Below, one piece after another: positions 1 to 56,657 of a DNA stretch of 64,000 nucleotides. How positions within the stretch are numbered: position 1 is the stretch's first letter; each line of letters opens with the position of its first letter. The stretch spans positions 23,973,276 through 24,037,275 of the forward strand of contig NW_027467782.1 of the NCBI RefSeq assembly GCF_004210375.1. The letters run 5' to 3'. Both the position numbers and the translations under genes were made by a program. Source of the DNA: Tachypleus tridentatus (Eukaryota; Arthropoda; Merostomata; Xiphosura; Limulidae). Under the pieces are notes generated by a model. That model worked only from the letters and a program-made list of their open reading frames with translations, searched no databases and was not told where the DNA came from.

Positions 1-479
1 ACCCATTACTGGAGTCCTGATTAGATGGATCAGTATATGGACGAACAAAGAGTGTAGTATTGATGGTAACATTTAAAGTAATTATATGTGGATATGTTTA
101 CCAATACTTATTCATACCACACTTCAACATCGACATTTCCTTTCATTAAAATTAAGAAAAACTGATTTCATGTTATCTCTAAAGTAATAATTCCTTGTAA
201 GTACTTTTAACATTATTGTAATAATCTATTTCATGCATTTATATTTCTGAGGAACCCACTTGAAGCTAATAAATTTTGCAGACATTCTACAATGGGTAAT
301 TTAAAACTTTTTATCACAGAACTCATATATAATTCGACGTTTTTAGGTTATAAAGCGATCAGGAAGGAAATTTGAGATACGGTGATATAGAGAAACCTCA
401 GTCAACAGCACGATACTCACCCAGTCAATAACCCCAAATGCAATAAACAAAATACTTAAATTCTTGTGAAAAATAAAGC

Positions 480-790
480 AAATACAATACTAATGTCATT
501 TATAAAATACTTTATGGCAACTTCCACGTATTTTACGTCAGAGAAACAAGCCCGAAACTCAAAACAACATTCATGTAACACAAAAAAATAGAATTTCACG
601 TTTTAAATTTAACACTGCAACTCAAATAAATATACTACAGGTAACATTTAAATTCCAAACAGAGAATCCAACATCATTAGACGATAAACCAAATAATTCC
701 TTGTAATACAAGAGCAAACACACATTAAACCAATATAAAGAAACACTTTTATATCTATATTAATACAATTTAATAAATCTTGTTCGATGT
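480..790 (+). mobile_element. Decayed Penelope-like element C-terminal fragment (left arm)
   Basis: Conceptual translation on the plus strand ends in a motif like NQYKETLLYLY. This matches NQYKGTPLYLY at the C terminus of the better-preserved Penelope-like copy at 56658-56840. Upstream there is a recognisable but degraded HVF...INI stretch equivalent to SHVFEH...NITI in that copy. The frame is broken by stops and the catalytic YIG part is absent. The mirror copy lies at 22420-22730. Confidence 0.55.
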
Positions 791-1111
791 ATTATAGTTT
801 GAAGATGATACTTTTAATTTTCAAGATTTTATAATTTACAAAATATTCTGAGAATACTAAGAGTAATGCAGATAGTATTAATAGGAAATTACACGAAGGT
901 TGTTAAAACTATAATATGAAAATAAGACAGTTCAATTTTCATTATAATTAAATGATATAAAAGATAACGTATCGTTTTATGAACGAAATCGATAAAACAC
1001 AATTTAATTAACGTAGATGGGAGTATTTTAAAATTCTATCTGGTGCAGTAACAACAGTTTGATCAACAGAGACAATTCTATAAAGAAATTATTTACTTTG
1101 TAGGTGAAAAA

Positions 1112-1390
1112 GGGCCCGGCATGGCCAAGCGCGTAAGGCGCGCGAATCGTAATCCGAGGGTCCGAGTTCGCGCCCGCGTCGCGCCAAACATGCTCACACT
1201 TTCAGCCTGGGGGTGTTATAATGTGACGGTCAATCCCACTTTTCGTTGGTAAAAGAGTAACCCAAGAGTTGGCGGTGGGTGGTGATGACTAGCTGCCTTC
1301 CCTCTAGTCTTACACTGCTAAATTACGGACGGCTAGCACAGATAGCCCTCGAGTAGCTTTGTGCGAAATTCAAAACAAACAAACAAATTG
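1112..1390 (+). mobile_element. SINE-1 copy (left arm)
   Basis: Near full-length tRNA-derived SINE. It has a tRNA-like head with box A (near TGGCCAAGCGCG) and box B (near GTTCGCGCCC), a conserved core with ATCCCACTTTTCGTTGGT, a body containing CTAGTCTTACACTGC, and a CAAACAAACAAA tail. The anticodon arm resembles a Thr-CGT tRNA. Its head differs by several bases and small indels from the mirror copy at 21811-22087. Confidence 0.9.
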
Positions 1391-1647
1391 AAGGTGAACA
1401 AACGAATAATATGAATTATTTGAATCAACCAACTGAAAACCATGATTAGAAAAGTCTTCAGATCATTGGTAAGTATCACTAATATATCAATTCATAGAGA
1501 AAACAAAATAAAATATACAAAACAAGAGCTGAGATGTTAGTTTTCAAAGACAAAATTCAGAATAATTGACAGTAGTTAGCTTTTACAGTGGAAAACAGTA
1601 GATCGGAGTTAGCTATGTTAGTACAAGCGCTGTATGTGACCGCAAAT

Positions 1648-1995
1648 AGAAAGTTAAGTTCTTGCTTTCTACTCTAAGTAAGCTATCAAATCTATTAAGC
1701 AAAGATTACCTCACACTTATAGTTTGTGGCCCCTACACATAGTTATCAGATTTTCATTTATTACACGTGGACTGACATTACTACAGCTACAATTAGAGGT
1801 ACCTTAAAATGTTTGAATAAATTGAAAAGAAATACACTTATTATAGCTGTAATAATATCAGTCCACGTGTAATACATGAAAATCTGACAACTATATGTAG
1901 GGACCACAAACTGTAAGTATGAGGTAATCTTCTTTCACTTTTGTCTAATATATTTGATAGCTTACTTGGAGTAGAAAGCAAGAACTTAACTTTCT
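1648..1995. mobile_element. Foldback MITE (left arm)
   Basis: About 350 bp with two roughly 150-bp inverted arms meeting near 1820-1840. Both arms contain AGTTCTTGCTTTCTAC, TTGTGG(C/T)CCCTACA and ACACGTGGACTGA in opposite orientation. No coding sequence. The arms differ by indels of 10-20 bp. Mirrored at 21209-21555. Confidence 0.75.
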
Positions 1996-2049
1996 AATTA
2001 ACTGTAGAGAATGAAAAGCTTTTCGAATGATCAAGCACACATAGTTTTC

Positions 2050-2155
2050 TTATAACAAAACCACATCGGGCTATTTACTGTGTCCACCGAGGGCAATCGA
2101 ACTCCTGATCTTAGCGTTGTAAATCCATAGACTTACCGCTGTCCCATCGGGAGAC
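2050..2155 (-). mobile_element. SINE-2 (second tRNA-derived family), left arm
   Basis: Reverse strand reads GATGGGACAGCGGTAAGTC, a box-B-like GAGTTCGATTGCCC, then a GTAAATAGCCCGATGTGG tail body. This family recurs at 10478, 12664, 30728, 48480 and 55116. No CAAA-tailed SINE-1 core is attached. Confidence 0.7.
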
Positions 2156-2580
2156 TATTTCATTAAAACAATAACTCCATGAACATAGTTATTTAATGTT
2201 AAGTGTTAACTGATTTTATCTGTTGTCAGTTCAAAACTGGTTGCTTATCAGTTCGATTATAAGACTATAATCGTAAAGTTTTTTAATTAATGATTAAATG
2301 GTACAATAGATTATATTACACGTTTTTTAAGCTGTGAGTTTTTGTTTCTATTTTTCTCTGTAAATATGCACTCTACTTAAACTAAAGACATACTTATACG
2401 ACTTGGATTTAAATTTATTCATAAAGAATGTGAAAAACAACGTATTTGCGAGTCATTTGAAAATACTGAACCACAAGAATAATAGAATCAATTTAAAAGA
2501 AAACACCAGTTTTAATAAATGAAGTTTTAATTAAAATTCCTTTTAACCAAAGATTTGTTATATTTTTTTAAATTACGATG
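2155..2580. other. No gene seen
   Basis: AT-rich sequence between a SINE-2 and a SINE-1 copy. Frames are short and broken. The mirror is 20632-21047. Confidence 0.6.
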
Positions 2581-2856
2581 GTTTGTTTGTTTTTGAATTA
2601 CGCTCAAAACTACACGAGGGCTATCTGCGCTAGCCGTCCCTAATTTAGCAGTGTAAGACTAGAGGGAAGGCAGCTAGTCATCACCACCCACCGCAAACTC
2701 TTGGGCTACTCTTTTACCAACGAAAAGTGGGATTGACCGTCACATTATAACACCCCCAGGCTGAAAGTGTGAGCATGTTTGGCGCGACGGAGATGCGAAC
2801 CCGCGACGCTGAAATTACGAGTCGCACGCCATAACACGCTTGGCCATGCCGGATCC
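2581..2856 (-). mobile_element. SINE-1 copy (left arm)
   Basis: Reverse-oriented SINE-1 with GTTTGTTTGTTT (the tail) at the low-coordinate end and the head ending near TTGGCCATGCCGG. The anticodon-arm region differs from the consensus (GCTGAAATTACGAG). Confidence 0.88.
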
Positions 2857-3327
2857 TGACAGCATCTGAATCAATATTTACATGTATTTATACTAAATTT
2901 ATACAAAAATATTTAGAAATACTTTTTCGAGATTTGCGACTGTAATATAAATCCCTTTCACGTATCAGCCCTCAAATATATTCTACCATCATGTTTTCGT
3001 TATACACGCTCCCAAGTCACAAGAGCAAAGTTTGAAGACAATAGGCCTTTTCCATTTACTTTAGGCATAAGCAATCAGAAAATAACATTTTTTGCCCAGG
3101 AACATGAAAAGGTAAAAAATTTTCTTACATAGTGTAATCTTACGTATACGCAGGCAATTAATTTTTTAAATCAATACACATGGTGTGTGAAATATCAAAC
3201 GAAAAGGTTATGGCTGAAAGAAATTTAAAAGCAAGATGGACGATATCAATTTAGATGCTATTTCTGTTAAATTAGTACAGTTTAATAAATGAAAATATGG
3301 TCTAAAAAAAAAACACCATGAATTTAC

Positions 3328-3616
3328 CTCTGACATCATGTTTGTAATCACCTTCACGATTTTTGCATGTGTAAATTCCCGCGTCTTCAAATTGGATGTG
3401 GGTTAGCACTAATTTGCCACCGTATTTTATTTGCGTTCTCTCACTATTAATAACTTTTTCTTTGAGATTTGAGTACCAAATAACTGGTTCTTCTCTCGCT
3501 TGGTTTGAACATATTAATGTAAGAGTAGAACCACGTTCAATTTCGTAGACGAATGTAAAACCTGAAACAAGCAGGAAACTAGCGAAAATATAAAATAATT
3601 GAGTGTAATTAGCCAT
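3328..3616 (-). CDS. First coding exon of an Ig-domain membrane protein (left-arm copy)
   Basis: Starts at the ATG on the minus strand (3616-3614) and ends at a GT donor (GTAAAT) after codon HDVR, phase 1. Residues 1-20 are a hydrophobic signal peptide (MANYTQLFYIFASFLLVSG). Then comes one Ig-like domain: a first Cys in LICSN, a Trp in VIWYSN and a DAGIYTC motif holding the second Cys. The frame is fully open here, unlike the mirror exon, which lost one A. Later exons would lie leftward, outside the window. The gene points outward from the palindrome centre. I do not recognise an orthologue. A secreted or receptor-type Ig protein is inferred from the right-hand continuation. Confidence 0.72.
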
Positions 3617-4218
3617 TGAAATCTCTCTGCACTGTACTCTTTGTAAGTCACTTTCTGTATTGTTTCTAAGTGAAATATCAGTGTTACTATGCGCATAATA
3701 GTATTCTTGTTTGAATGACGTCATGAACTGAAGTAACATTGTGAGGTAGAAAAACGTTTTACTAACAATAATGATTGCAAAGTTTATTGTTTTCTGTAGT
3801 GTGAAAGACGCTTGAACAGAGAAATTATATTCATGTTTATGTTATGCATAATTTAGATTTAATAAACAATAACAACACTTGCCTAAGAGTTCAACTTGAA
3901 ATTTAGGTAAAAGCAAATAAAATTTATACGAAATTTTTCTATGCAATTTCTTCTGACAATACAAATCTTAGTCGGCATTTATGATATAAACCATAATAAG
4001 ACTGCTAACAGATGCCTTATGATACATATAAATTATAATTGAGTAGTTATAAACCTACAAACATTGTAACAATATTTAAATTAAAAAAATCAGTTAAAGA
4101 ATATTCACATATATAACTTATGTGACAAATACTGCATTCCATGGTGTTAGATAGGGATTAATGACTACAATTAGCTGTATTAATATTTTGTTCTTCAAAA
4201 CTAATAAGATTTCAATAG

Positions 4219-4466
4219 TTTGTTTTTTGAATTTCGCACAAAGCTACTCGAAGGCTATTTGTGGTAGTCGTCCCTAATTTAGCAGTGTAAGACAAGATGG
4301 AAGGCAGCTGGTCATCACCTCCCACAGCCAACTCTTGGGCTACTCTTTTACCAACGAATAGTGGGATTGATCATCACATTTTAACGCCACCACGGCTGAA
4401 AGGCGAGCATGTTTGGTGCGACTGGGATTCCAACGCGCGACCCTCGGATTACGAGTCGAACGCCAG
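4219..4466 (-). mobile_element. SINE-1 copy, fused head-on to an inverted SINE tail (left arm)
   Basis: Minus-strand SINE-1 missing the last part of its tRNA head. At AACGCCAG it joins directly to a plus-strand SINE-1 3' end (4467-4515). The head uses GATTCCAACGCGCG instead of the common box B. Mirror at 18742-18986. Confidence 0.85.
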
Positions 4467-4515
4467 ATAGCCCTCGAGTAGCTTTGTGCGAAATTCCAAA
4501 ACCCAAACCAAACCA
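4467..4515 (+). mobile_element. SINE-1 3' end in inverted orientation (left arm)
   Basis: Reads ATAGCCCTCGAGTAGC, then GTGCGAAATTCC and a CCAAACC tail on the plus strand. It begins immediately where the minus-oriented SINE breaks off, giving a foldback SINE. Confidence 0.8.
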
Positions 4516-5069
4516 TGCTTCTAGATTTTAACTTGTTCATTTCTCAGTTAAACAACCAAAACTGAGAAGAATAGCATGCAAAACTAACGTATAACTCAAT
4601 TACAAGATAGTACATGAATGAAATCCTTTGTTAAATGTAATTTTTTGTTACTGTGACACTTCGGTTTTGGAAACGTAGACTTATATTTCTATAAATCTTC
4701 AATTTCATAAATATCTTGTTACGTATTTCTCTTCGTCTTTGAAGTGTGTTCTTGGATATTAAAGGAGGTCCACAGTGCAGCTTAACAGTATGGGGTTCAC
4801 TATAATGGGGCTTTATTTATATACGTATAAGTCTTTGGGCCCTTTTTATGGCTGACATTTTAATTAATATTTCTGAAAAGATGTCTACGAATTTGTGTCA
4901 TTCGCTTATTCTAGGTCTTTCTGCAAGCCTATACAATGCGCATGCACATTATATACTGCACAGTATAAATCTGAGCATCACTTGCTGTCAGCGGCAGTTC
5001 AGTTTTTCATGTTAAGAACGTGTGTACACTTTTTACAGAGATCCCTTTATTATGCGTGAGAAAAGAATG

Positions 5070-6120
5070 TGTGATGATACCGAGCCAAAGAAACCTAACT
5101 AGCACGAAACAAAGGAATAAATGAACCATCTGTAAGACTGTTCAATGAAAGAACCAGTAAAAACAGTATTGAATGGCTACCAACTGTTTTGCCTCGAAAA
5201 CAATCGTAAAGAAAAGGAGCTCTCTAATGGTGAATATGGAACGTCTGCTATCAATATGATTAGAAGATTGTAATCAGAAACGAATTCCTTTAAGTCAAAT
5301 GGAAATTCAAACGAAAGCTACGAGCCTTTTAAACGCCTTAAAAGAGAACGATGGAGAATGGGGAACTAATGAAATATTTTCGGCAAGCCGTGATTGGTTC
5401 TTTTGTTTTAAGCAAACACTGGTTTCCATAATGTTCGTATTGCAGGCGAAAGTTCAAGTGTAGACAAAGATGCTGCTGAAAAATTTCCAAATGAATTTAT
5501 AGAAATTATTAAAAAAGTTCGGTACAAAGATAACCAAATATGAAACGGGTTTATTTTGGGGAAAATATGCCTTCTATAACTTTCCTATCAGAAAATGAAA
5601 AAAACTTGGCCATGTTACAAGCGTTGAAAGATCGTTTAACACTTGTTAGGCGGAAATGGATCTGGCGATTTTAAATTAAAACCTGTGTGCTTGTGTATCG
5701 TGCGGAAATCCCCCCGAACACTAATCAGCTGTGCAAAGAAGACTCTCTCAGTTGTTTGGCGATGAAATAAAAAAAGCATGGGTCACAAAACCTTTGTTTG
5801 AAGACTGGTTAAAAAAGTTATTTTTGTCCTGCAGTTGAACATTACTGCACAAGAAAACAACTTGAACTTTAAAGCCATCCAACGGGACTTTGTGACTTTA
5901 ATGAAAATGTCAAAATTCATTTTCTTCCACCCAATACAACATCTCTACTGCAATTAATGAATTAAGGTGTCATTGCGACGTTTAAAGCTTATTATTTGAA
6001 GCGAACTTTTCTCAAGCAATAAAGGCTACAACTACAGAAGCTGCACTATCTTCGACTAAATTCTGGAAAGATTACATCATCAGAAGTGCTATCGAGAATA
6101 TCAACGAAGCGAGAGTAACA
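5070..6120 (+). pseudogene. Tigger/pogo-type transposase fossil (left arm)
   Basis: The translation, switching frame several times, follows a TIGD1-like DDE_1 transposase: an N-terminal part with PKKP...NEPSVRLFNERT, then YETGLFWGKMPS, KDRLTLV, GDFKLKPV, KKAWVTKPLFEDW, VKIHFLPPNTTSLLQ and FKAYYLKRTF, then FWKDYIIRSAIENI. Stops and single-base shifts break the frame repeatedly, and the Asp expected just before ETGLFW is not seen. It cannot encode an active enzyme. The 3' end abuts the hAT fossil, with a SINE near the junction. Mirror at 17090-18135. Confidence 0.82.
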
Positions 6121-6197
6121 TGAGATCAATATGGAAGCACGTTCTGCCTGATTGTACAAGCTTTAAAAATTTTCCACTGGCTGGTTGAGGCTGAAAA

Positions 6198-6475
6198 GGC
6201 CCGGCATGGCCTAGCGCGTTAAGGCGACGACTCGTAATCCGAGGATCGCGGGTTCGCGCCCGCGTCGCGCCAAATATGCTCGCCCCTCTCAGCCGTGGGG
6301 GGCGTTATAATGTGACGGTTAATCCCACTTTTCGTTGGTAAAAGAGTAGCCCAAGAGTTGGCGGTGGGTGGTGATGACTAGCTGCCTTCCCTCTAGTCTT
6401 ACACTGCTAAATTACGGACGGCTAGCACAGATAGCCCTCAAGTAGCTTTGTGCTACTCAAAACAAACAAAAAAAC
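6198..6475 (+). mobile_element. SINE-1 insertion at the Tigger/hAT junction (left arm)
   Basis: Full-length SINE-1 flanked by a perfect 12-bp target-site duplication, TGAGGCTGAAAA, at 6186-6197 and 6476-6487. The same insertion and duplication are present in the mirror arm, so it predates the arm duplication. Confidence 0.93.
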
Positions 6476-6487
6476 TGAGGCTGAAAA

Positions 6488-8050
6488 AAATGTATAGAAC
6501 AAATATATTGTAGAGAAAAGTTAATTGCCACTTGACAGCAGTAGAAAGAACTTCGGTCTACTAGATTTAATGAATGGGCTGTACAAGGCACATATATGGC
6601 AAACTTATTTTCTTCTAAAATCTTTTGCTGCATATCCTTATAACCCCCAGACATGTTAGCAGCATTGTCATAAGACTGACCCCTATATTTTGTAAAATTA
6701 AGTTTGCAAACTTCACGTAATTACTGCAATACCGGGTTTGCCATTTCATCAGTCATATGACTTTTTAGTTCCAGAAAGGTTAAAAGCATTCAATAGGCTG
6801 CCCATTTTTTTAAGTATCGAGTACAACTCTTAACTGATCTATATGTGATAGATCTGGCGTCGAGTCAACTGACAAGCTAAAATAACCAGAAGAAGTTACT
6901 TTATCAACAACGAATGTGTGGTCCTTCTGAACCATTGGTTCAATGTGTTCTTCACAGGCGGTTTTGGACAAGTATGAAGGATTTCCTTTTCCAGAATTTC
7001 CATATTTATAAATGTGTCCTGCTAAAATGGATCAAACTGACTTTTGAGCTCAAGTAGCTCTAAAAATTCCCATTCTGCAGTGAACCAAATTTTATCTGTT
7101 CAGTGAAAAGCCAGGCTACGTTCAGCTAACGTACAAATAACAACTATTGCGTGCTCCAAGACATGTTCCCAGTAATCGCACTCTTCTTTTAATTTGTTTT
7201 TCCAACTCTTGTTGCAAGCCTAAACCTTGTCTGTAAGTTAAGTATGTTAGCTAGAGTCTCGGTGAGTAGTGCTTCTTTCATGATGATCAATTACAATAGT
7301 ATTTCGCCAGTCACTGAAACCTTCTATTTCAACAAAACACGAGGAAAATTTAGGGACAAAGAGTCGATAGTAAATACAATAGCCACTCTCTCTTGTGTTA
7401 CTCACCATTGGTTTTACCCCAAAGAAAAGTTTTGCAAACAGTATTTCATTGGTTTGCTACTACTAAAAATCCAGCAAGATTTAACAAATGACCCATTGTG
7501 GTGTTAACAGTCAGTGGGTCCACAAGCAATCCAATAAGCCACATCAGCAGCAGAGAAATCGAGCCACAACCCTGGATCTTTTGCTTTAGTTTCTTCATCT
7601 TTGTAGACTGAAGCATTTTACCATAGTTCAGCAATTTTCATTTTCAGAAATTATTTCAACTTTAAACTGTCTTATAGAGCAACTTGCATCAACATTAACA
7701 CGAGAGATTTCTGGAGAATTTACAAGCATAGTAAGATCAGTTGTGAAAGCTGTTCCAGTTGAGCAAGCCTGTGACACCTCAACGTCACCATGATGTTCTG
7801 ATCTTCAAGTGGACAAAGTGGTACTTGTAGGTGTGAAGCTTGGTTCAAATTTAATCATGTCAGAGTCAGATACAGTACAAGTGACTTCTCATAGTTTTGA
7901 TGTGGAAGATCTTGTTGTGTAAGTTCAGTGAAAAATTAATCTGCTATCTAGTCTTGGCCACTAAATCCAAAGCCTTTTGTTGGTTCTCTTTTGCCAGTTT
8001 TTTCTTTTGTGCACCACTTAAATGAACATGTTTCATCTTGCAGTCTGAAA
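6488..8050 (-). pseudogene. hAT transposase fossil, ZMYM1/DUF4371 type (left arm)
   Basis: Minus-strand translation starts with MKHVHLSGAQKKKLAKE. It continues through frame breaks with a TTF-type region (DPGLWLDFSAADVAYW and SKPMKYCLQKTFLWGKTNGE-like blocks, then GFSDWRNT) and the DUF4371 part: YFSLSVDSTPDLSHIDQLRV, YRGQSYDNAANMSGGY and FAIYVPCTAHSLNLV. Many stops and small indels. These are the landmarks of ZMYM1-like and hAT transposases. A SINE-1 splits it near the C-terminal FFSAS motif. Mirror at 15178-16736. Confidence 0.85.
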
Positions 8051-8642
8051 AATACAGAAAAAAAACCACAAAATAATACGGATCATATATAATTATAATG
8101 ATAAGAAAAACACTGAAATTTATAAAGAAAAACATTCGTAAGACAGTCAAACATACTAAACTCTAGGTCAACATTTAGACAAAGACTGTCAGAAAGTTAT
8201 CCTAAGGTCCAGGTCCATCAGCACATAAACATGAATTCATAAATACATTTATTGACTTGCTGTATTATGATATGTTGAAAACCATTCATGACTGGCCTCA
8301 ATCTATTTTAGAAAAATTAATTTTCAGTCATTGCAAAAGTTTCATTTCGGTTGTTGTTATGGTAGCTAATTGCAAGAAGCAATGTCAAAGGCTAGAGTAC
8401 TTTAATCCTAATATCTGAAGAATGAGTTGTAACCTCATCTTTTCTTTTGAGCTCAGATTTGACCTGGGACTATTAGATGAGCCAACAAACCATGCATCAA
8501 CGAAATAGGCATATGTCTGAAACTTTACTTACATGCCTGGATGCGAAGGCAAATTCAAAACGACAGCCTTACACTGGGAATAGTCCACTTCATTATTCCA
8601 TGCTACAGTAGCGTTTCCAGTGTACTTACACTAAACTAGTTA

Positions 8643-8704
8643 CAGTATTTAGGCCTAACGTTATTGTCACTCAGTTCTCAGATAACATTAACGTTAGGCC
8701 TAAT
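8643..8704. repeat. Short perfect hairpin
   Basis: TTAGGCCTAACGTTA and its reverse complement TAACGTTAGGCCTAA flank about 30 bases, just upstream of the MITE at 8710. Mirrored near 14522-14580. Confidence 0.65.
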
Positions 8705-8709
8705 GCTGA

Positions 8710-8942
8710 TACAGGGTGGCCCGTAAGTTCCTACCCATCCATATGTTATTATGTTATATTCAATTACGCATGTATTATGTATTCGTTTCTTTTTTCAGAG
8801 AAATATGTCCGATGTAAGCCCATTTATACTTGAAAATGTCTCACAGAACATGGCGTCGCATAATATTATGCAGCGAGAATGAGGGACAGTACACAGATAC
8901 ATCAGATATATGGATGGGTAGAGACTTACGGGTCACCCTGTA
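8710..8942. mobile_element. Mariner-like MITE (left arm)
   Basis: 233 bp bounded by TA. The terminal inverted repeats begin TACAGGGTGGCCCGTAAG and run about 30 bp, ending CTTACGGGTCACCCTGTA. No transposase. The TACAGGGTG start is shared with the mariner-like element at 49475. Confidence 0.8.
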
Positions 8943-9181
8943 CATTGCAAATGAGGCCACTAACGTTAAGCCTAGTACTTAGTACTAACCTTGCTCACAT
9001 GAACTTGTTCAGTTTATGCACTATTTTCAATCCTAAATTGATTTTCTTGATTTTTCAGTTCTTTACATTACCTTCGTATGACCACGATGACACATTACTG
9101 TACTACTTAGTAGTAGTATGGTATAAACATAGCAATGTTAAGAACCTTGTTATCGAACAAGTCGAACGAAGTCTTACGTAA

Positions 9182-10477
9182 TTTAACCTAAAAGATCAAA
9201 TTATCGCCTTTAGACTGCTCCGATCTTTCAATTGTTTTCCCAGCTTTTCAGAAATGTAATACAACACATAGTGATCTGAATTTATAGTCACAAAATAGTT
9301 GAATTACACCTGAAAGTTTGTCTTCGTCGTATTTGTGTTTCTGTCTCGGATTGTTCGTTCGTCTCATAAAAAAATATCACCAGAAGGCACCCTTGTACTT
9401 ATCTCCTCAGTAAATCTCAGCTTCAGATTTGCTTATATTATTACATAATTACAAGGGTATACATACATGCCCAAATGCTCTTACAGGTTACATGTAATAT
9501 ATGAACGGTAGCATTGCTACAGTAGCATTCCTTTCTAAAATTTTTCTTGGTATGATAAATTACAAAACATGTACTCACAAACAAAGGTTTTTAACAGCAA
9601 GCTATTTGAAGCCAAAAAACTTCCGGCTCAGAAAACTTCAGTGAAAAACACACTTATAAAGCAATTCTAAGACAAATAAAACCAAAACAAACAAGACAAT
9701 ATAAGGCACGAAAACAAAACCGAAAAAAACATTAAACTAGCCACGTCTCTGAACACATCTGTTACCATTTCGTTTGACTTATATTTCTGTGGTATTATTC
9801 TCTTTTGTTTCTGTAGATGTGACTGAATAAAGCAGTAAAAGATAAAACAAAACAGTTCCACTGCCTATAATTTCTTATAAATAGCCACAGCAGAAGAAAT
9901 GATTGAGAAAATATTTCATCTGCAAAGTTAGATAGACATCATAACATGTGATCATCTTTTACCTGAAGTTTTATCAACATTTTGTACCGCTCTTTACAGT
10001 AATCTTTCGCAAATCAATTACTTCTTACTTCAGATACATAGTTTGGTAGATTCTCGAAACTTTAGTCACTAACCGAGCCAATGAAAACTTTTTTAACAAT
10101 GCAGAGTAAAATCAAGCACGGTAGATAAGAGCAATTACAAAAAAAAATCAACAAAAGTTGAGTGTGGTAGTGAAAGAGATAAGGGCATTATAACTAAGGG
10201 GAAATCTCTGTGGTTATCCCTTCCATTGTTGCCCTAATCATGTGCGTATTTTGCGTAATGGTTAATCCAGGGCTGCTTTAGTTGATTGTTAAGCCTTTAT
10301 AGCATGTGATTTTACGTATGAATGATGATAATACTAATCTTTAGAGGAAGTTAAACTTGCAAGTTTGTTGCAGGGATTCAGTTCATTTTTGCAGAGAATT
10401 TCCTTTATACTTTGTTTTAAACTTTTGATTTGAAGTTCTTCTGTGATATATTTGAATTTTTGGTCTGGTTGTTTTGT
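9182..10477. other. No gene seen (left arm)
   Basis: AT-rich arm sequence with only short chance frames, for example 64 codons at 9667-9861 with no recognisable domain. The mirror is 12772-14050. Confidence 0.55.
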
Positions 10478-10580
10478 ATTAAGGACAAAGCTACACAATG
10501 GGCTATGCTCTGCTCATCACGAAACCAAGTTTTTAGTGTTATAATTCCGCAGACATACCGCTGAGCCACTGGGGGGCTTT
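10478..10580 (-). mobile_element. SINE-2 (left arm)
   Basis: Reverse strand reads CAGTGGCTCAGCGGTATGTC, TAACACTAAAAACTTGG and TAGCCCATTGTGTAGC, a variant of the second tRNA-derived family. Confidence 0.75.
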
Positions 10581-10757
10581 TTGGTCTGGAAGTATACTTT
10601 TATTTTTAGGAAGGTTGGTGTCAATTTTTCAAATCTGCAAGTTTTGTAAACGTTAAATTTCGCATCATATTTTTTTGTAATTAAATAAATTTCTTATTTT
10701 CTATTTCGCCATAACAGAATCAGATTCTTTCGATAAAGCTTACGTTGGTTAGTGGTA

Positions 10758-11012
10758 TGGCCAAGCGCGTAAGGCGTGCGACTCGTAATTCGCGGGTTCG
10801 CGCCCGCGTCGCGCTAAACATGCTCGCCCTCCCAGCCGTGGGGGCGTATAATGTGACAGTCAATCCCACTTTTCGTTGGTAAAAGAGTAGCCCAAGAGTT
10901 GGCGGTGGGTGGTGATGACTAGCTGCCTTCCCTCTAGTCTTACACTGCTAAATTAGGGACGGCTAGCACAGATAGCCCTCGAATAGCTTTGTGCGAAATT
11001 CAAAAACAAAAA
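10758..11012 (+). mobile_element. SINE-1 at the inner end of the left arm
   Basis: Head at TGGCCAAGCGCG, tail CAAAAACAAAAAC. The 5' target-site repeat GGTTAGTGGTA is present at 10747-10757. The expected 3' repeat is absent and the sequence turns directly into unique spacer. The palindrome junction therefore lies in this SINE tail. Confidence 0.9.
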
Positions 11013-12209: not shown

Positions 12210-12220
12210 TACCACTAACC

Positions 12221-12484
12221 TTGTTTGTTTGTTTGGAATTTCGCACAAAGCTACTCGAGGGCTATCTGTGCTAGCCGTCCCTAATTTAGCAGTGTAAGAC
12301 TAGAGGGAAGGCAGCTAGTCATCACCACCCACCGCCAACTCTTGGGCTACTCTTTTACCAACGAAAGTGGGATTGACTGTCACATTATACGCCCCACGGC
12401 TGGGAGGGCGAGCATGTTTAGCGCGACGCGGGCGCGAACCCGCGACCCTCGGATTACGAGTCGCACGCCTTACGCGCTTGGCCA
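12221..12484 (-). mobile_element. SINE-1 at the inner end of the right arm
   Basis: Mirror SINE, flanked by an intact 11-bp duplication TACCACTAACC at 12210-12220 and 12485-12495. This is the undisturbed version of the insertion seen at 10758-11012. Confidence 0.92.
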
Positions 12485-14290: not shown

Positions 14291-14521
14291 TACAGGGTGA
14301 CCCGTAAGTCTCTACCCATCCATATATCTGATGTATCTGTGTACTGTCCCTCATTCTCGCTGCATAATATTATGCGACGCCATGTTCTGTGAGACATTTT
14401 CAAGTATAAATGGGCTTACATCGGACATATTTCTCTGAAAAAGAAACGAATACATAATACATGCGTAATTGAATATAACATAATAACATATGGATGGGTA
14501 GGAACTTACGGGCCACCTGTC
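14291..14521. mobile_element. Mariner-like MITE (right arm)
   Basis: Mirror of 8710-8942. One terminus is eroded (CCACCTGTCAGC where the left arm gives CCACCCTGTATCAGC). Confidence 0.78.
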
Positions 14522-15177
14522 AGCATTAGCCTAACGTTAATGTTATCTGAGAACTGAGTGACAATAACGTTAGGCCTAAATACTGTAACTAGTTTAGTGT
14601 AAGTACACTGGAAACGCTACTGTAGCATGGAATAATGAAGTGGACTATTCCCAGTGTAAGGCTGTCGTTTTGAATTTGCCTTCGCATCCAGGCATGTAAG
14701 TAAAGTTTCAGACATATGCCTATTTTGTTGATGCATGGTTTGTTGGCTCATCTAATAGTCCCAGGTCAAATCTGAGCTCAAAAGAAAAGATGAGGTTACA
14801 ACTCATTCTTCAGATATTAGGATTAAAGTACTCTAGCCTTTGACATTGCTTCTTGCAATCAGCTACCATAACAACAACCGAAATGAAACTTTTGCAATGA
14901 CTGAAAATTAATTTTTCTAAAATAGATTGAGGCCAGTCATGAATGGTTTTCAACATATCATAATACAGCAAGTCAATAAATGTATTTATGAATTCATGTT
15001 TATGTGCTGATGGACCTGGACCTTAGGATAACTTTCTGACAGTCTTTGTCTAAATGTTGACCTAGAGTTTAGTATGTTTGACTGTCTTACGAATGTTTTT
15101 CTTTATAAATTTCAGTGTTTTTCTTATCATTATAATTATATATGATCCGTATTATTTTGTGGTTTTTTTTTCTGTAT

Positions 15178-16736
15178 TTTTCAGACTGCAAGATGAAACA
15201 TGTTCATTTAAGTGGTGCACAAAAGAAAAAACTGGCAAAAGAGAACCAACAAAAGGCTTTGGATTTAGTGGCCAAGACTAGATAGCAGATTAATTTTTTC
15301 ACTGAACTTACACAACAAGATCTTCCACATCAAAACTATGAGAAGTCACTTGTACTGTATCTGACTCTGACATGATTAAATTTGAACCAAGCTTCACACC
15401 TACAAGTACCACTTTGTCCACTTGAAGATCAGAACATCATGGTGACGTTGAGGTGTCACAGGCTTGCTCAACTGGAACAGCTTTCACAACTGATCTTACT
15501 ATGCTTGTAAATTCTCCAGAAATCTCTCGTGTTAATGTTGATGCAAGTTGCTCTATAAGACAGTTTAAAGTTGAAATAATTTCTGAAAATGAAAATTGCT
15601 GAACTATGGTAAAATGCTTCAGTCTACAAAAGATGAAGAAACTAAAGCAAAAGATCCAGGGTTGTGGCTCGATTTCTCTGCTGCTGATGTGGCTTATTGA
15701 TTGCTTGTGGACCCACTGACTGTTAACACCACAATGGGTCATTTGTTAAATCTTGCTGGATTTTAGTAGTAGCAAACCAATGAAATACTGTTTGCAAAAA
15801 ACTTTTCTTTGGGGTAAAACCAATGGTGAGTAACACAAGAGAGAGTGGCTATTGTATTTACTATCGACTCTTTGTCCCTAAATTTTCCTCGTGTTTTGTT
15901 GAAATAGAAGGTTTCAGTGACTGGCGAAATACTATTGTAATTGATCATCATGAAAGAAGCACTACTCACCGAGACTCTAGCTAACATACTTAACTTACAG
16001 ACAAGGTTTAGGCTTGCAACAAGAGTTGGAAAACAAATTAAAAGAAGAGTGCGATTACTGGGAACATGTCTTGGAGCACGCAATAGTTGTTATTTGTACG
16101 TTAGCTGAACGTAGCCTGGCTTTTCACTGAACAGATAAAATTTGGTTCACTGCAGAATGGGAATTTTTAGAGCTACTTGAGCTCAAAAGTCAGTTTGATC
16201 CATTTTAGCAGGACACATTTATAAATATGGAAATTCTGGAAAAGGAAATCCTTCATACTTGTCCAAAACCGCCTGTGAAGAACACATTGAACCAATGGTT
16301 CAGAAGGACCACATTCGTTGTTGATAAAGTAACTTCTTCTGGTTATTTTAGCTTGTCAGTTGACTCGACGCCAGATCTATCACATATAGATCAGTTAAGA
16401 GTTGTACTCGATACTTAAAAATGGGCAGCCTATTGAATGCTTTTAACCTTTCTGGAACTAAAAGTCATATGACTGATGAAATGGCAAACCCGGTATTGCA
16501 GTAATTACGTGAAGTTTGCAAACTTAATTTTACAAAATATAGGGGTCAGTCTTATGACAATGCTGCTAACATGTCTGGGGGTTATAAGGATATGCAGCAA
16601 AAGATTTTAGAAGAAAATAAGTTTGCCATATATGTGCCTTGTACAGCCCATTCATTAAATCTAGTAGACCGAAGTTCTTTCTACTGCTGTCAAGTGGCAA
16701 TTAACTTTTCTCTACAATATATTTGTTCTATACATT
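15178..16736 (+). pseudogene. hAT transposase fossil, ZMYM1/DUF4371 type (right arm)
   Basis: Forward-strand mirror of 6488-8050 with the same motifs. Open pieces include 16227-16418 (LSVDSTPDLSHIDQLRVVL) and 16571-16736 (MSGGYKDMQQK to the AHSLNLV region). The frame resumes weakly after the SINE at about 17034. Broken in the same places as the left-arm copy. Confidence 0.85.
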
Positions 16737-16748
16737 TTTTCAGCCTCA

Positions 16749-17021
16749 GTTTTTTGTTTGTTTTGAGTAGCACAAAGCTACTTGAGGGCTATCTGTGCTA
16801 GCCGTCCGTAATTTAGCAGTGTAAGACTAGAGGGAAGGCAGCTAGTCATCACCACCCACCGCCAACTCTTGGGCTACTCTTTACCAACGAAAGTGGGATT
16901 AACCGTCACATTATAACGCCCCCACGGCTGAGAGGGCGAGCATATTTGGCGCGACGCGGGCGCGAACCCGCGATCCTCGGATTACGAGTCGTCGCCTTAA
17001 CGCGCTAGGCCATGCCGGGCC
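16749..17021 (-). mobile_element. SINE-1 insertion in the hAT fossil (right arm)
   Basis: Mirror of 6198-6475, with the duplication TTTTCAGCCTCA at 16737-16748 and 17022-17033. It interrupts the hAT frame between IHFFSAS and the following TSQWKIFKAC-like segment. Confidence 0.93.
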
Positions 17022-17089
17022 TTTTCAGCCTCAACCAGCCAGTGGAAAATTTTTAAAGCTTGTACAATCAGGCAGAACGTGCTTCCATA

Positions 17090-18135
17090 TTGATCTCATG
17101 TTACTCTCGCTTCGTTGATATTCTCGATAGCACTTCTGATGATGTAATCTTTCCAGAATTTAGTCGAAGATAGTGCAGCTTCTGTAGTTGTAGCCTTTAT
17201 TGCTTGAGAAAAGTTCGCTTCAAATAATAAGCTTTAAACGTCGCAATGACACCTTAATTCATTAATTGCAGTAGAGATGTTGTATTGGGTGGAAGAAAAT
17301 GAATTTTGACATTTTCATTAAAGTCACAAAGTCCCGTTGGATGGCTTTAAAGTTCAAGTTGTTTTCTTGTGCAGTAATGTTCAACTGCAGGACAAAATAA
17401 CTTTTTTAACCAGTCTTCAAACAAAGGTTTTGTGACCCATGCTTTTTTATTTCATCGCCAAACAACTGAGAGAGTCTTCTTTGCACAGCTGATTAGTGTT
17501 CGGGGATTTCCGCACGATACACAAGCACAGGTTTTAATTTAAAATCGCCAGATCCATTTCCGCCTAACAAGTGTTAAACGATCTTTCAACGCTTGTAACA
17601 TGGCCAAGTTTTTTCATTTTCTGATGGGAAAGTTATAGAAGGCATATTTTCCCCAAAATAAACCCGTTTCATATTTGGTTATCTTTGTACCGAACTTTTT
17701 AATAATTTCTATAAATTCATTTGGAAATTTTTCAGCAGCATCTTTGTCTACACTTGAACTTTCGCCTGCAATACGAACATTATGGAAACCAGTGTTTGCT
17801 TAAAACAAAAGAACCAATCACGGCTTGCCGAAAATATTTCATTAGTTCCCCATTCTCCATCGTTCTCTTTTAAGGCGTTTAAAAGGCTCGTAGCTTTCGT
17901 TTGAATTTCCATTTGACTTAAAGGAATTCGTTTCTGATTACAATCTTCTAATCATATTGATAGCAGACGTTCCATATTCACCATTAGAGAGCTCCTTTTC
18001 TTTACGATTGTTTTCGAGGCAAAACAGTTGGTAGCCATTCAATACTGTTTTTACTGGTTCTTTCATTGAACAGTCTTACAGATGGTTCATTTATTCCTTT
18101 GTTTCGTGCTAGTTAGGTTTCTTTGGCTCGGTATC
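17090..18135 (-). pseudogene. Tigger/pogo-type transposase fossil (right arm)
   Basis: Reverse-complement copy of 5070-6120 with the same disabling stops and frameshifts, so the damage predates or was homogenised after the arm duplication. A few single-base differences are visible, such as the C run in the AAATCCCC segment. Confidence 0.82.
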
Positions 18136-18694
18136 ATCACACATTCTTTTCTCACGCATAATAAAGGGATCTCTGTAAAAGTGTACACACGTTCTTAACA
18201 TGAAAAACTGAACTGCCGCTGACAGCAAGTGATGCTCAGATTTATACTGTGCAGTATATAATGTGCATGCGCATTGTATAGGCTTGCAGAAAGACCTAGA
18301 ATAAGCGAATGACACAAATTCGTAGACATCTTTTCAAAATATTAATTAAAATGTCAGCCATAAAGGGCCCAAAGACTTATACGTATATAAATAAAGCCCC
18401 ATTATAGTGAACCCCATACTGTTAAGCTGCACTGTGGACCTCCTTTAATATCCAAGAACACACTTCAAAGACGAAGAGAAATACGTAACAAGATATTTAT
18501 GAAATTGAAGATTTATAGAAATATAAGTCTACGTTTCCAAAACCGAAGTGTCACAGTAACAAAAATTACATTTAACAAAGGATTTCATTCATGTACTATC
18601 TTGTAATTGAGTTATACGTTAGTTTTGCATGCTATTCTTCTCAGTTTTTGGTTGTTTAACTGAGAAATGAACAAGTTAAAAATCTAGAAGCATG

Positions 18695-18986
18695 GTTTGG
18701 TTTGGGTTTTTGGAATTTCGCACAAAGCTACTCGAGGGCTATCTGGCGTTCGACTCGTAATCCGAGGGTCGCGCGTTGGAATCCCGGTCGCACCAAACAT
18801 GCTCGCCTTTCAGCCGTGGTGGCGTTAAAATGTGATGATCAATCCCACTATTCGTTGGTAAAAGAGTAGCCCAAGAGTTGGCTGTGGGAGGTGATGACCA
18901 GCTGCCTTCCATCTTGTCTTACACTGCTAAATTAGGGACGACTACCACAAATAGCCTTCGAGTAGCTTTGTGCGAAATTCAAAAAA
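18695..18986 (+). mobile_element. Foldback SINE-1 (right arm)
   Basis: Mirror of 4219-4515. A minus-strand SINE tail at 18695-18741 joins a plus-strand SINE-1 missing its 5' end (18742-18986). Confidence 0.85.
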
Positions 18987-19594
18987 ACAAACTATTGAAA
19001 TCTTATTAGTTTTGAAGAACAAAATATTAATACAGCTAATTGTAGTCATTAATCCCTATATAACACCATGGAATGCAGTATTTGTCACATAAGTTATATA
19101 TGTGAATATTCTTTAACTGATTTTTTTAATTTAAATATTGTTACAATGTTTGTAGGTTTATAACTACTCAATTATAATTTATATGTATCATAAGGCATCT
19201 GTTAGCAGTCTTATTATGGTTTATATCATAAATGCCGACTAAGATTTGTATTGTCAGAAGAAATTGCATAGAAAAATTTCGTATAAATTTTATTTGCTTT
19301 TACCTAAATTTCAAGTTGAACTCTTAGGCAAGTGTTGTTATTGTTTATTAAATCTAAATTATGCATAACATAAACATGAATATAATTTCTCTGTTCAAGC
19401 GTCTTTCACACTACAGAAAACAATAAACTTTGCAATCATTATTGTTAGTAAAACGTTTTTCTACCTCACAATGTTACTTCAGTTCATGACGTCATTCAAA
19501 CAAGAATACTATTATGCGCATAGTAACACTGATATTTCACTTAGAAACAATACAGAAAGTGACTTACAAAGAGTACAGTGCAGAGAGAAGTTCA

Positions 19595-19882
19595 ATGGCT
19601 AATTACACTCAATTATTTTATATTTTCGCTAGTTTCCTGCTTGTTTCAGGTTTTACATTCGTCTACGAAATTGAACGTGGTTCTACTCTTACATTAATAT
19701 GTTCAAACCAAGCGAGAGAAGAACCAGTTATTTGGTACTCAAATCTCAAAGAAAAGTTATTAATAGTGAGAGAACGCAAATAAAATACGGTGGCAAATTA
19801 GTGCTAACCCACATCCAATTTGAAGACGCGGGAATTTACACATGCAAAAATCGTGAAGGTGATTACAAACATGATGTCAGAG
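19595..19882 (+). CDS. Exon 1: signal peptide and Ig domain, frameshifted
   Basis: Same protein as the left-arm exon 3328-3616 up to WYSNLKEK. Then four A residues replace the five of the left arm and the frame closes at RERK. The second half of the domain (INSERTQIKYGGK to DAGIYTC) is intact in another frame from 19759 on. The GT donor at 19883 matches the left copy. Confidence 0.7.
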
Positions 19883-22800
19883 GTAAATTCATGGTGTTTT
19901 TTTTTTTAGACCATATTTTCATTTATTAAACTGTACTAATTTAACAGAAATAGCATCTAAATTGATATCGTCCATCTTGCTTTTAAATTTCTTTCAGCCA
20001 TAACCTTTTCGTTTGATATTTCACACACCATGTGTATTGATTTAAAAATTAATTGCCTGCGTATACGTAAGATTACACTATGTAAGAAAATTTTTTACCT
20101 TTTCATGTTCCTGGGCAAAAAATGTTATTTTCTGATTGCTTATGCCTAAAGTAAATGGAAAAGGCCTATTGTCTTCAAACTTTGCTCTTGTGACTTGGGA
20201 GCGTGTATAACGAAAACATGATGGTAGAATATATTTGAGGGCTGATACGTGAAAGGGATTTATATTACAGTCGCAAATCTCGAAAAAGTATTTCTAAATA
20301 TTTTTGTATAAATTTAGTATAAATACATGTAAATATTGATTCAGATGCTGTCAGGATCCGGCATGGCCAAGCGTGTTATGGCGTGCGACTCGTAATTTCA
20401 GCGTCGCGGGTTCGCATCTCCGTCGCGCCAAACATGCTCACACTTTCAGCCTGGGGGTGTTATAATGTGACGGTCAATCCCACTTTTCGTTGGTAAAAGA
20501 GTAGCCCAAGAGTTTGCGGTGGGTGGTGATGACTAGCTGCCTTCCCTCTAGTCTTACACTGCTAAATTAGGGACGGCTAGCGCAGATAGCCCTCGTGTAG
20601 TTTTGAGCGTAATTCAAAAACAAACAAACCATCGTAATTTAAAAAATATAACAAATCTTTGGTTAAAAGGAATTTTAATTAAAACTTCATTTATTAAAAC
20701 TGGTGTTTTCTTTTAAATTGATTCTATTATTCTTGTGGTTCAGTATTTTCAAATGACTCGCAAATACGTTGTTTTTTCACATTCTTTATGAATAAATTTA
20801 AATCCAAGTCGTATAAGTATGTCTTTAGTTTAAGTAGAGTGCATATTTACAGAGAAAATAGAAACAAAACTCACAGCTTAAAACGTGTAATATAATCTAT
20901 TGTACCATTTAATCATTAATTAAAAACTTTACGATTATAGTCTTATAATCGAACTGATAAGCAACCAGTTTTGAACTGACAACAGATAAAATCAGTTAAC
21001 ACTTAACATTAAATAACTATGTTCATGGAGTTATTGTTTTAATGAAATAGTCTCCCGATGGGACAGCGGTAAGTCTATGGATTTACAACGCTAAGATCAG
21101 GAGTTCGATTGCCCTCGGTGGACACAGTAAATAGCCCGATGTGGTTTTGTTATAAGAAAACTATGTGTGCTTGATCATTCGAAAAGCTTTTCATTCTCTA
21201 CAGTTAATTAGAAAGTTCTTGCTTTACTTCAAAGCTAAAGCTATCAAATATATTAGACAAAAGTGAAAGAAGATTACCTCATACTTACAGTTTGTGGTCC
21301 CTACATATAGTTGTCAGATTTTCATGTACACACGTGGACTGATATTATTACAGCTATAATAAGTGTATTTCTTTCAATTTATTCAAACATTTTAAGGTAC
21401 CTCTAATTGTAGCTGTAGTAATGTCAGTCCACGTAATAAATGAAAATCTGATAACTATGTGTAGGGGCCACAAACTATAAGTGTGAGGTAATCTTTTGCT
21501 TAATAGATTTGATAGTTTACTTAGAGTAGAAAGCAAGAACTTAACTTTCTATTTGCGGTCACATACAGCGCTTGTACTAACATAGCTAACTCCGATCTAC
21601 TGTTTTCCACTGTAAAAGCTAACTACTGTCAATTATTCTGAATTTTGTCTTTGAAAACTAACATCTCAGCTCTTGTTTTGTATATTTTATTTTGTTTTTC
21701 TCTATGAATTGATATATTAGTGATACTTACCAATGATCTGAAGACTTTTCTAATCATGGTTTTCAGTTGGTTGATTCAAATAATTCATATTATTCGTTTG
21801 TTCACCTTCAATTTGTTTGTTTGTTTTGAATTTCGCACAAAGCTACTCGAGGGCTATCTGTGCTAGCCGTCCGTAATTTAGCAGTGTAAGACTAGAGGGA
21901 AGGCAGCTAGTCATCACCACCCACCGCCAACTCTTGGGTTACTCTTTTACCAACGAAAAGTGGGATTGACCGTCACATTATAACACCCCCAGGCTGAAAG
22001 TGTGAGCATGTTTGGCGCGACGCGGGCGCGAACTCGGACCCTCGATTGACGATTAGCGCGCCTTACGCGCTTGGCCATGCCGGGCCCTTTTTCACCTACA
22101 AAGTAAATAATTTCTTTATAGAATTGTCTCTGTTGATCAAACTGTTGTTACTGCACCAGATAGGAATTTTAAAATACTCCCATCTACGTTAATTAAATTG
22201 TGTTTTTATCGATTTCGTTCATAAAACGATACGTTATCTTTTATATCATTTAATTATAATGAAAATTGAACTGTCTTATTTTCATATTATAGTTTTTAAC
22301 AACCTTCGTGTAATTTCCTATTAATACTATCTGCATTACTCTTAGTATTCTCAGAATATTTTGTAAATTATAAAATCTTGAAAATTAAAAGTATCATCTT
22401 CAAACTATAATACATCGAACAAGATTTATTAAATTGTATTAATATAGATATAAAAGTGTTTCTTTATATTGGTTTAATGTGTGTTTGCTCTTGTATTACA
22501 AGGAATTATTTGGTTTATCGTCTAATGATGTTGGATTCTCTGTTTGGAATTTAAATGTTACCTGTAGTATATTTATTTGAGTTGCAGTGTTAAATTTAAA
22601 AACGTGAAATTCTATTTTTTTTGTGTTACATGAATGTTGTTTTGAGTTTCGGGCTTGTTTCTCTGACGTAAAATACGTGGAAGTTGCCATAAAGTATTTT
22701 ATAAATGACATTAGTATTGTATTTGCTTTATTTTTCACAAGAATTTAAGTATTTTGTTTATTGTATTTGGGGTTATTGACTGGGTGGGTATCGTGTTGTT

Positions 22801-25800
22801 GACTGAGGTTTCTCTATATCACCGTTATCTCAAATCTCCTTCCTGTCGCTTTATAACCTAGAAACATCGAACTATATATGAATTCTGTAATAAAAAGTTT
22901 TAAATTACCCATTGTAGAACGTCTGCAAAATTTATTAGCTTCAAGTGGGTTCCTCAGAAATATAAATGCATGAAATAGATTATTACAATAATGTTAAAAG
23001 TACTTACAAGGAATTATTACTTTAGAGATAACATGAAATCAGTTTTTCTTAATTTTAATGAAAGGAAATGTCGATGTTGAAGTGTGGTATGAATAAGTAT
23101 TGGTAAACATATCCACATATAATTACTTTAAATGTTACCATCAATACTACACTCTTTGTTCGTCCATATACTGATCCATCTAATCAGGACTCCAGTAATG
23201 GGTGATATTGTCCAACCTCAAGGTGCAGATGTTGATATTGACAGCCATAATATACTCTTGGAAGATGTATCACATTCCATTAGTTGATGCTAAAGATGCC
23301 CTGAAAAGAGTTATTTCAGGGCAGTGATGAAGACGAATGCGTAATCTTATCGGTACTCCTGTAATAAACATACAGTATTAGTGAGAGGCTGTCACTGATG
23401 TTCATAGCAATAATACTTTATAGTTTATAGGGATTAGTAAGCCATATCAAAACAGTTTTGAATATGCAACCTGTCATATAATGTGACTCAATCTGATATA
23501 ACATTTCTTAAATGGTGTGATGTAACCGAAAATTGGTTGCTTTTGGGAAAGGTATGTAACAGACCTTTCCAATGTAAATTTTTATATGCCCATATCATGA
23601 AAATATATTCAAATGAGAATTTAAATTTTTCGAAACAAAGATATTTATTGTACGTAAGAGCATCGAAGAAATAATTTTGGTTTGCCAGAATAATTCGGAA
23701 ATAGACCTACAACAAGTCGTACGAACACAAATGTCAGAGATAAAAACCGCTGAAGTGTCCCAGGCGATGGTACGTAAAAAAATATCTCAGTCTTCTAACC
23801 GCTGAGTAATTAGATAGATATGCATGTTATTGTACACACAGACACACCAGTCACCTCACTGATGTAAGAATTATAGATTTCTATGTGATCAGAGACTAGA
23901 TGGATTATGGTAAACCTGTAGAGAGAAGTGATGAGGCTCCAAAGTTATTTTGATATAATGAACTCAACTTGTGAATGTTGAAGCAAAATCTTTGTACTCT
24001 AAAGATACAAATCATATCTACGAAGTTTTTTGAGAACGTATTTTGAATAAACAATACTATAAATTTACAGTGAAAGGTGTTAGATCGCTATATTATTTAT
24101 CTTGATAAATCCGCAAAAAATTAAGGATTTGGTTTTATATTAAATTTAAATGAAAAATTTTCTCAGGAATGCATTTCATCCAATTTCTGCATTATAAGGA
24201 TATTATTTGATATTTTGTTGTTTGCAAGACACAATCATACACTGATACATTTTACGAACGTAATATTCCCAAAATAACCTGTATTTTCATAACTGATATT
24301 AACATAAACAATAACAACAGTTCAACGTTTAACTGTGACAAATAAGAATTTTGCAAGGGAAACACCAACGGAAATCAAATGTACCTATAGAAAACATAAA
24401 AAAAAAAGATCGTGTGTAATTTCATAAACTTCCAAGTTTGTGTGATTAGTTTCATTAGTTAACTCCATTAGTAAGTACATAAAAGAAACAAAAGTCTACT
24501 GTTAAGAAACTGTTTTGACACGTTTTATTTTTCTCACGAAAAGTAACATTAATGTTGTTATTTTACAACATTATTTATTTTAATATTATTGTGAAAACCT
24601 TAAAATTCCAACGGTGACACAAAACGTGCTAATAAAAATATTAACTCTCTGTTGTTTCTCCAGTGTATGTTCCAGCCGAGAATCTCAACTGTACTCGTGG
24701 ATACCAAAGAGATGTTAACAGGTGTTGTAAGTATATATGATACTCAATTACTTTAAACTGTTCACATTAAACACAAATAGATGAAAGACTTTTAAAAATA
24801 TGGAATTTTAGTTCAACACATATGTTTTTTGATACTAAAGACGTTGTTAGAACAATAAAATTAACACTGGGTAAATAAATGTTTAGTTTTGTACTTTTAA
24901 CGCTTTTAGATCCATGTCCTCCTGGTCACTATGACAATGGATTCCAAACTCACTGCCTGCCGTGTCCAGGAGGGACTTACATGGCATCTTTTTGCTGCTG
25001 ACGCCTGTGTAGCTTGTCCTGATGACGAAATTACTGATGAAGAAGGAGCTGATAATAAAGATCTTTGTAGAAGTAATGGAACAAAAGGGTTTTAAAGTTT
25101 TCTTTTATTGTTTCCTTAACATTTTAAAAATGTTTATTTTTGTTCATGCAGATTGTTATAATACGATACTTCTTCATAACTTTCATGGTTTTTAATGCAT
25201 TAAAAAGATTTGGTTTTACTGAGAAATCCTACTACTCGTTTTTAAAGATGAGCTCAAACATTTACGACAAATAGCATTGAATAGCTGTCTTACCTCCAGT
25301 ATATCATTTCAAAATTATGAACGGCTAACGCTGAAAGTCCTCGTTCAGCTATCCGCGAAATTGAAAAACAAACAAATATAACGGTGTCTCAATATCACAT
25401 CTGTGTGCGTCACATTATTACTAAAAAGACGTAAAGATATTTAACTAAAACAGTGTATGTCCCAAATCTATGTTTAATATGTTTATTTTGTGTGCATAAT
25501 GTCGTTTTTGTAATAAAATACAGTAATTTGTCCAAATACAAAACAAATGTTTTAAAATACGATTATAACAACATTGGATTATCAAAACGTTAGCAGTGTC
25601 TCATGAGTACTCAATAAAACTATTAGAAAGAATTGTTACCAAGTAAACGAAAAACTTCATGAGCAGTGACGTACGACGTTCAGTGTTTGTAGTCAAAATG
25701 GTATCGTTATTTATCTGGGAAATTTAGAGTAAAGAGAAATTTGTAAAAATTACTGTTTTTAATAGTGTTGTAAAGACGCAGAAACTACCATTCAGTGGAT

Positions 25801-56650: not shown

Positions 56651-56657
56651 GCGGCAT

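Follow-up and report, generated by a model that had tools for sequence, protein, structure and literature searches.

The palindrome that fills about the first 23 kb of the window, a stretch of 64,000 nucleotides at C19:23973276-24037275, is probably a genuine, young inverted duplication. A segment of 11.1 kb was apparently inserted by a known mechanism into a short interspersed nuclear element (SINE) of one copy of a dispersed repeat unit. The mechanism is best read as break-induced replication that started between two inverted SINEs and ended in end joining. The duplication is most likely private to the window copy and well resolved, and it clearly exemplifies an accident of a known type. Window base p corresponds to C19:23973275+p, and a base 0 exists. 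C19 is the 69.8-Mb scaffold carrying the window, and the genome searched comprised 2.17 Gb in 205 contigs.

The window was compared with itself by BLAST. Bases 1-11010 matched the reverse complement of 12228-23203 with 98.9% identity over 11,043 columns, with 23 mismatches and 100 gap letters; the length of the match excludes a chance origin. When 20 kb of left flank was added, the inverted match spanned about -81 to 23285, and its exact outer edge was base -77 against 23281. The whole palindrome measures about 23.4 kb, of which the window start trims only about 80 bases of the left arm. The arms run from -77 to 10,982 and from 12,228 to 23,281. These results confirmed the first-pass annotation, which had described a palindrome of at least 23 kb with 11-kb arms and a 1.2-kb spacer, the arms being reverse complements over their full length with nested insertions in both and scattered differences. 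Several copies of one SINE family are among the insertions, and the differences are mostly insertions and deletions (indels). The parts of the structure are as follows.

1..10982, minus strand: left arm, inverted and probably derived copy of the right arm, starting 77 bases outside the window at C19:23973198 (self-BLAST, sister copies, junction analysis)
10754..11016, plus strand: hybrid SINE at the inner junction, with the 5' part of SINE-A and the 3' part and tail of SINE-B
10905..10982, plus strand: 78-base tract, the same in SINE-A and SINE-B, enclosing the switch
11017..12209, no strand: spacer, non-palindromic, about 1.2 kb, itself part of the dispersed repeat unit (self-BLAST, genome search)
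11338-11469: old SINE fragment inside the spacer (self-comparison of the SINE family)
12210..12220, no strand: target-site duplication of SINE-A, spacer side
12221..12484, minus strand: SINE-A, without counterpart in eight of the nine fetched sister copies
12485..23281, plus strand: right arm, probably the original, collinear with one sister copy through its outer end (sister-copy comparison)
30130..30629, no strand: scaffold gap of 500 N

The order before the event was determined from nine sister copies fetched from the genome. In eight of them, the left flank (flank Z) runs directly onto an intact SINE-B, followed by the spacer and the right arm, without a left arm. The ancestral order, still present in the sister copies, was shown to be flank Z, SINE-B (plus strand), the 1.2-kb spacer and the right arm. 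In the window copy, SINE-B is split near its 3' end by the inverted 11.1-kb copy of the right arm, which starts at 23281 and finishes in SINE-A. SINE-A (minus strand), between the spacer and the right arm, occurs among these copies only in the window copy and its nearest sister, one of the nine; this nearest sister, about 99% identical, has no palindrome. The repeat unit is dispersed and at least about 28 kb long, with the C19:23.77 Mb copy matching -9517 to 29700 of the window frame, minus the left arm. The spacer was also used as a query of the genome. At least 70 matches were found, at least 31 of them near full length by count (the window's own included) and at least 16 of those on C19; 40 of 4924 candidates were scored, so these counts are lower bounds.

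The relationship of the arms was investigated in a five-way alignment of 9.2 kb with the copies at C19:37.58 Mb, C19:23.77 Mb and C19:41.5 Mb. Eleven substitutions were common to both arms and in none of the three sister copies, 8 grouped both arms with the C19:37.58 Mb copy, and 2 further ones fit no such tree. Private substitutions numbered 10 in the right arm, 5 in the left arm, 0 at C19:37.58 Mb, 1 at C19:23.77 Mb and 66 at C19:41.5 Mb. On this alignment, the two arms are sisters of each other. Two further inverted sister pairs of the repeat unit were found on C19, at 18.51/18.59 Mb (99.5%) and 4.78/4.83 Mb (99.3%), each 93-96% alike to the other copies compared. The centre of the 18.51/18.59 Mb pair (10 kb, C19:18.55 Mb) contained no inverted self-match over 200 bases.

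An old palindrome, held similar by arm-to-arm gene conversion in the style of sex chromosomes, would also give high arm identity and the 11 variants common to both arms, and C19 is rich in copies, with at least two more inverted pairs. This explanation is very improbable, because both arms already contain SINE-A, which one of nine sister copies carries, the palindrome is missing from the nearest copy, and recency alone is enough without the sex-chromosome analogy. The palindromes of sex chromosomes resemble this one in their long arms, which are more than 99% alike in the mammalian cases (PMC8981503); they differ in that the palindrome here looks recent and private to the window copy.

SINE-A is flanked by an 11-base duplication whose spacer-side copy exists only at the right junction. 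A match of 11 bases was reached in 0.25% of 2000 random stretches, and the 7 bases at the left junction in 12%. By the same measure, four other SINEs (three of them in both arms) gave one 12-base match and three shorter ones compatible with chance. At the inner junction, with the C19:37.58 Mb copy as the SINE-B reference, the sites that tell SINE-A from SINE-B follow SINE-A up to 10904, apart from five scored as neither, and all those from 10983 onward follow SINE-B. The first junction lies within inverted homologous repeats, as a SINE-A/SINE-B hybrid with the switch in 10905-10982. At the outer junction, SINE-B is cut after -78 and joined to the base opposite 23281. This second junction has minimal microhomology, 1 shared base at -78/-77, and normal sequence resumes after it, with Z beginning again in SINE-B. 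Among 40 genome hits scored of 3595 candidates for a query across the outer junction, only the window crosses; the other 39 end at query position 223-225. The two junctions have at least 18 bases of SINE-B in common; the figure rises to as many as 96 if the switch was at the far end of the identical tract.

The simplest account of this structure is the following. A break or fork collapse may have occurred within SINE-B. The spacer-side end of SINE-B would then have annealed to SINE-A, which lies inverted at a distance of 1.2 kb, and from there primed 11 kb of synthesis running outward along the right arm. Finally, the newly made strand would have been end-joined, with 1 base of microhomology, to the Z side of the same break. 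Synthesis in this direction is an inference; an identical sequence would result if a fork had switched the opposite way.

A group of changes near the outer junction was found in the left arm.

284..440, no strand: 12 substitutions, every one a transition, and 1 deletion, clustered and confined to the left arm (absent from eight other copies and the right arm)

The cluster lies about 360-520 bases from the outer junction and may have been left there by error-prone synthesis. Its 12 transitions include all four kinds, and these 160 bases contain no transversion. At one of the 12 sites the right arm has a gap, two neighbouring changes could be read as a swap, and the count is 10 in the pairwise arm alignment. 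Duplication-triplication/inverted-duplication (DUP-TRP/INV-DUP) rearrangements are reported to show more point mutations at their second junction (PMC4352052).

The proposed event was compared with known systems. A two-junction replicative model is in print, and in the DUP-TRP/INV-DUP cases it covers, as in the window, one junction lies in inverted repeats, the second has short microhomology, and the normal chromosome resumes after the inverted copy; 14 of 16 second junctions there had 1-4 bases of microhomology, and extra point mutations were reported at the second junction (PMC4352052). The second junction in the window differs in returning to the departure point, so that a single 11-kb segment is duplicated. 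Instead of an inverted triplicated segment between two duplicated ones, the window has one duplicated segment and at least 18 repeated bases of SINE-B, and because only one segment is duplicated, the mechanism would be the same and the structure not. The repeats are also 270-base SINEs here and large low-copy repeats there, and the sequence comes from a reference genome here and from patients there. Among the closest known systems are human inverted duplications with a disomic spacer and a hybrid Alu or L1 at the fold-back junction. Homologous long interspersed nuclear elements (LINEs) or SINEs were present at 3 of 21 sequenced fold-back junctions in such duplications, and the spacers were single-copy (PMC3907307). 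In yeast single-stranded DNA, inverted Alus 1.5 kb or more apart, or 86-94% alike, fold back to give inverted dimers (PMC10164571). The setting there differs from that of the window, since the strain is mutant in telomere capping and shows dicentric chromosomes along with gross rearrangement.

Whether large palindromes in long-read assemblies are real or artefacts is often disputed. A second scoring of arm against arm gave 24 substitutions, 10 of them in one cluster, and 76 indels. Single-base indels made up 61 of the 76, and 48 of the 76 lay in homopolymers of at least 5 bases, though such runs form 3.9% of the arm bases. Twelve other repeat pairs in the window had the reverse balance, 297 substitutions against 31 gap openings, all of these pairs being more diverged (76-94% alike) and several being overlapping parts of one tandem array. 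Because of the indel excess in homopolymers and this reverse balance, the true divergence of the arms is small, and most differences look like residual unpolished long-read errors. Indel direction comes in patches along the arm (23 runs, longest 20; permutation p 0.0016 and 0.0012), which is what patchy polishing would give. Judged against the C19:37.58 Mb copy along the full arm, indels were right-deviant in 43 cases, left-deviant in 22 and unclear in 4; substitutions were left-deviant in 17 cases and right-deviant in 15. Homopolymer counts differed little between arms and flanks and had no bearing on whether the palindrome is real or false.

Several results weigh against a genuine duplication. 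The palindrome sits in a contig of only 48.3 kb, delimited by 500-N gaps at -18636..-18137 and 30130-30629. The arms are rich in indels of the long-read type, commoner in the right arm, the proposed original, where polishing is poor, and an immunoglobulin (Ig) exon is broken in that same arm. The C19:37.58 Mb copy has 0 private substitutions against 11 on the shared branch of the arms, for which a clock gives no explanation. The transition cluster could possibly derive from conversion by an unsampled copy or from mis-polishing. The C19:4.78/4.83 Mb pair mirror-faces itself across a 500-N gap within a tandem array, with about 0.6% divergence, and could be a haplotig placed in inverted orientation; because of this mirrored pair, haplotigs may have been joined in inverted orientation elsewhere among the assembled copies of this repeat family. 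The window palindrome, unlike that pair, has no gap at its centre. Among the fetched stretches L001-L029, gaps of exactly 500 N were found only in L009 (1364-1863) and in L011, from the C19:37.58 Mb copy (3806-4305), and in L041-L042 only in L042, the centre of the 4.78/4.83 Mb pair (3727-4226). Exact gaps of this size are presumably of the kind that a Hi-C scaffolder may write.

These points would fit an assembly error, in which the SINEs led to an inverted join of the right arm with its other haplotype or with a near-identical copy. A SINE does lie at the inner junction, the contig is short, the arm differences are mostly indels, a suspicious inverted pair faces a gap elsewhere, and 11 variants common to both arms are expected of two haplotypes of one locus. 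Such an error is nevertheless considered unlikely. Assemblers need overlapping sequence, of which the outer junction has none, and still Z picks up again exactly within the interrupted SINE-B; substitutions between the arms are few (24) and 10 of them fall in the one cluster; and a haplotype join alone does not account for 12 transitions in 160 bases. The earlier annotation had left three options, a real palindrome, an inverted haplotype join and a chimeric contig. This interpretation was partly supported: the genome comparison favoured the first option, as an inverted duplication within a SINE.

Fold-back and adapter artefacts are common enough to be taken seriously. Among genomic nanopore reads, fold-backs make up about 0.55-0.6%, one of them having about 2 kb between its segments, and virtually none occur in PacBio HiFi data (PMC12870357), though the platform of this assembly may differ; palindromes are found in 0.5% of unamplified PacBio reads, partly as false positives (PMC6218980). 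A fold-back read, ligation chimera or missed hairpin adapter carried into the contig would suit the nearly blunt outer junction. Its probability is very low, because a missed adapter yields no 1.2-kb spacer and a random fold-back would not switch in inverted SINEs and re-enter the same SINE; two independent accidents would be needed. The remark in the first reading that the asymmetric spacer speaks against a simple hairpin read was right, with the 11-base target-site duplication at the right junction and the hybrid SINE at the left.

Four candidates were rejected. A missed-adapter hairpin was ruled out by the 1.2-kb single-copy spacer with its target-site duplication at the right junction. A contig-end fold-back was ruled out by the position of the window inside a 69.8-Mb scaffold, with Z resuming at the left, though the contig itself is short. 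A palindromic mobile element was ruled out because the fetched sister copies had no palindrome. A terminal inverted duplication with deletion disagreed with the presence of flank Z, and no telomere-type runs (TTAGG, TTAGGG or TTGGG, at least 3 units) were found in the window.

Because unrearranged sister copies are present in the same genome, an inverted duplication can be read here per base: donor, direction, homology, end joint and possible mutation cluster. The window thereby offers a germline case, open to testing, of inverted duplication primed by SINEs in an apparent invertebrate. It also lies in a large Ig-type receptor gene family, and such events could matter for gene turnover. The relevant pieces are as follows.

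3305..3616, minus strand: left-arm copy of an exon with a signal-like stretch and an Ig domain, frame uninterrupted (Pfam match to Ig_3 with E 1.4e-8, above cut-off)
19595..19905, plus strand: right-arm copy of the Ig exon, broken into two frames through indels that are probably sequence errors
24910..25092, plus strand: cysteine-rich piece beyond the palindrome, perhaps a further exon of the gene with the Ig exon (18 bits to Ephrin_rec_like, whose cut-off is 23.1)
26624..27064, plus strand: open frame that begins with a hydrophobic stretch, also beyond the palindrome and perhaps the membrane and cytoplasmic exon of that gene (hydrophobicity only; no Pfam hit)

An exon for a signal-like stretch and an Ig domain is present in each arm. 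Together with the cysteine-rich and membrane/cytoplasmic pieces it likely belongs to a receptor-like gene that exists in many copies. Because the further likely exons lie outside the palindrome, duplication by the left arm would be limited to the 5' part of this gene. The left-arm Ig exon was matched in five of the nine fetched sister copies, with protein identity of 100% in two and then 99%, 97% and 86%; the frame of the 24910..25092 piece was unlike that of the C19:37.58 Mb copy. Genome-wide, at least 150 matches to the Ig exon were scored, of 408 candidates, some rows being pieces of one exon. Among the 150, 54 rows were on C19, which makes up 3.2% of the genome, and 114 had no stop (hand counts). 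It is conceivable, though doubtful, that C19 expands the Ig-receptor gene family by repeated inverted duplications primed at inverted SINEs, with error-prone synthesis in each event seeding variation in the copied arm. If so, the palindrome would be a fresh case in which the donor, the hybrid junction, the end joint and the mutation cluster are all still readable.

Pfam was run on 10 pieces, 8 of them from the arms (presumed hAT-like remnants and a piece of the right-arm Ig exon among them), and none of the 8 reached its cut-off. Rfam at gathering thresholds gave 0 hits in the window and the tRNA scan 0 genes. The SINE is presumably horseshoe-crab-like; a literature query with a 14-mer from it, on both strands, matched no paper. 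At 4219-4502 and 18700-18992, a SINE stands beside an inverted piece of a SINE 3' end, forming a miniature inverted structure.

Other features were observed in the rest of the window. Transposase remnants with Pfam transposase and DDE_3 matches lie at 46324-47049 (plus strand) and 49723-50815 (minus strand); they are presumably Tc1-like and mariner-like. The piece at 56188-56766 (minus strand) has no Pfam hit and is presumably of the Penelope-type GIY-YIG kind. An inverted pair at 36465-37120 (minus strand) and 60698-61509 (plus strand), 93% alike over about 645 bases, corresponds to the N-terminal exon of an SLC6 transporter. Another SLC6-like piece at 34712-35077 (minus strand) scored 26.7 bits, just below the cut-off of 27. 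The SLC6 pieces suggest head-to-head SLC6 paralogues.
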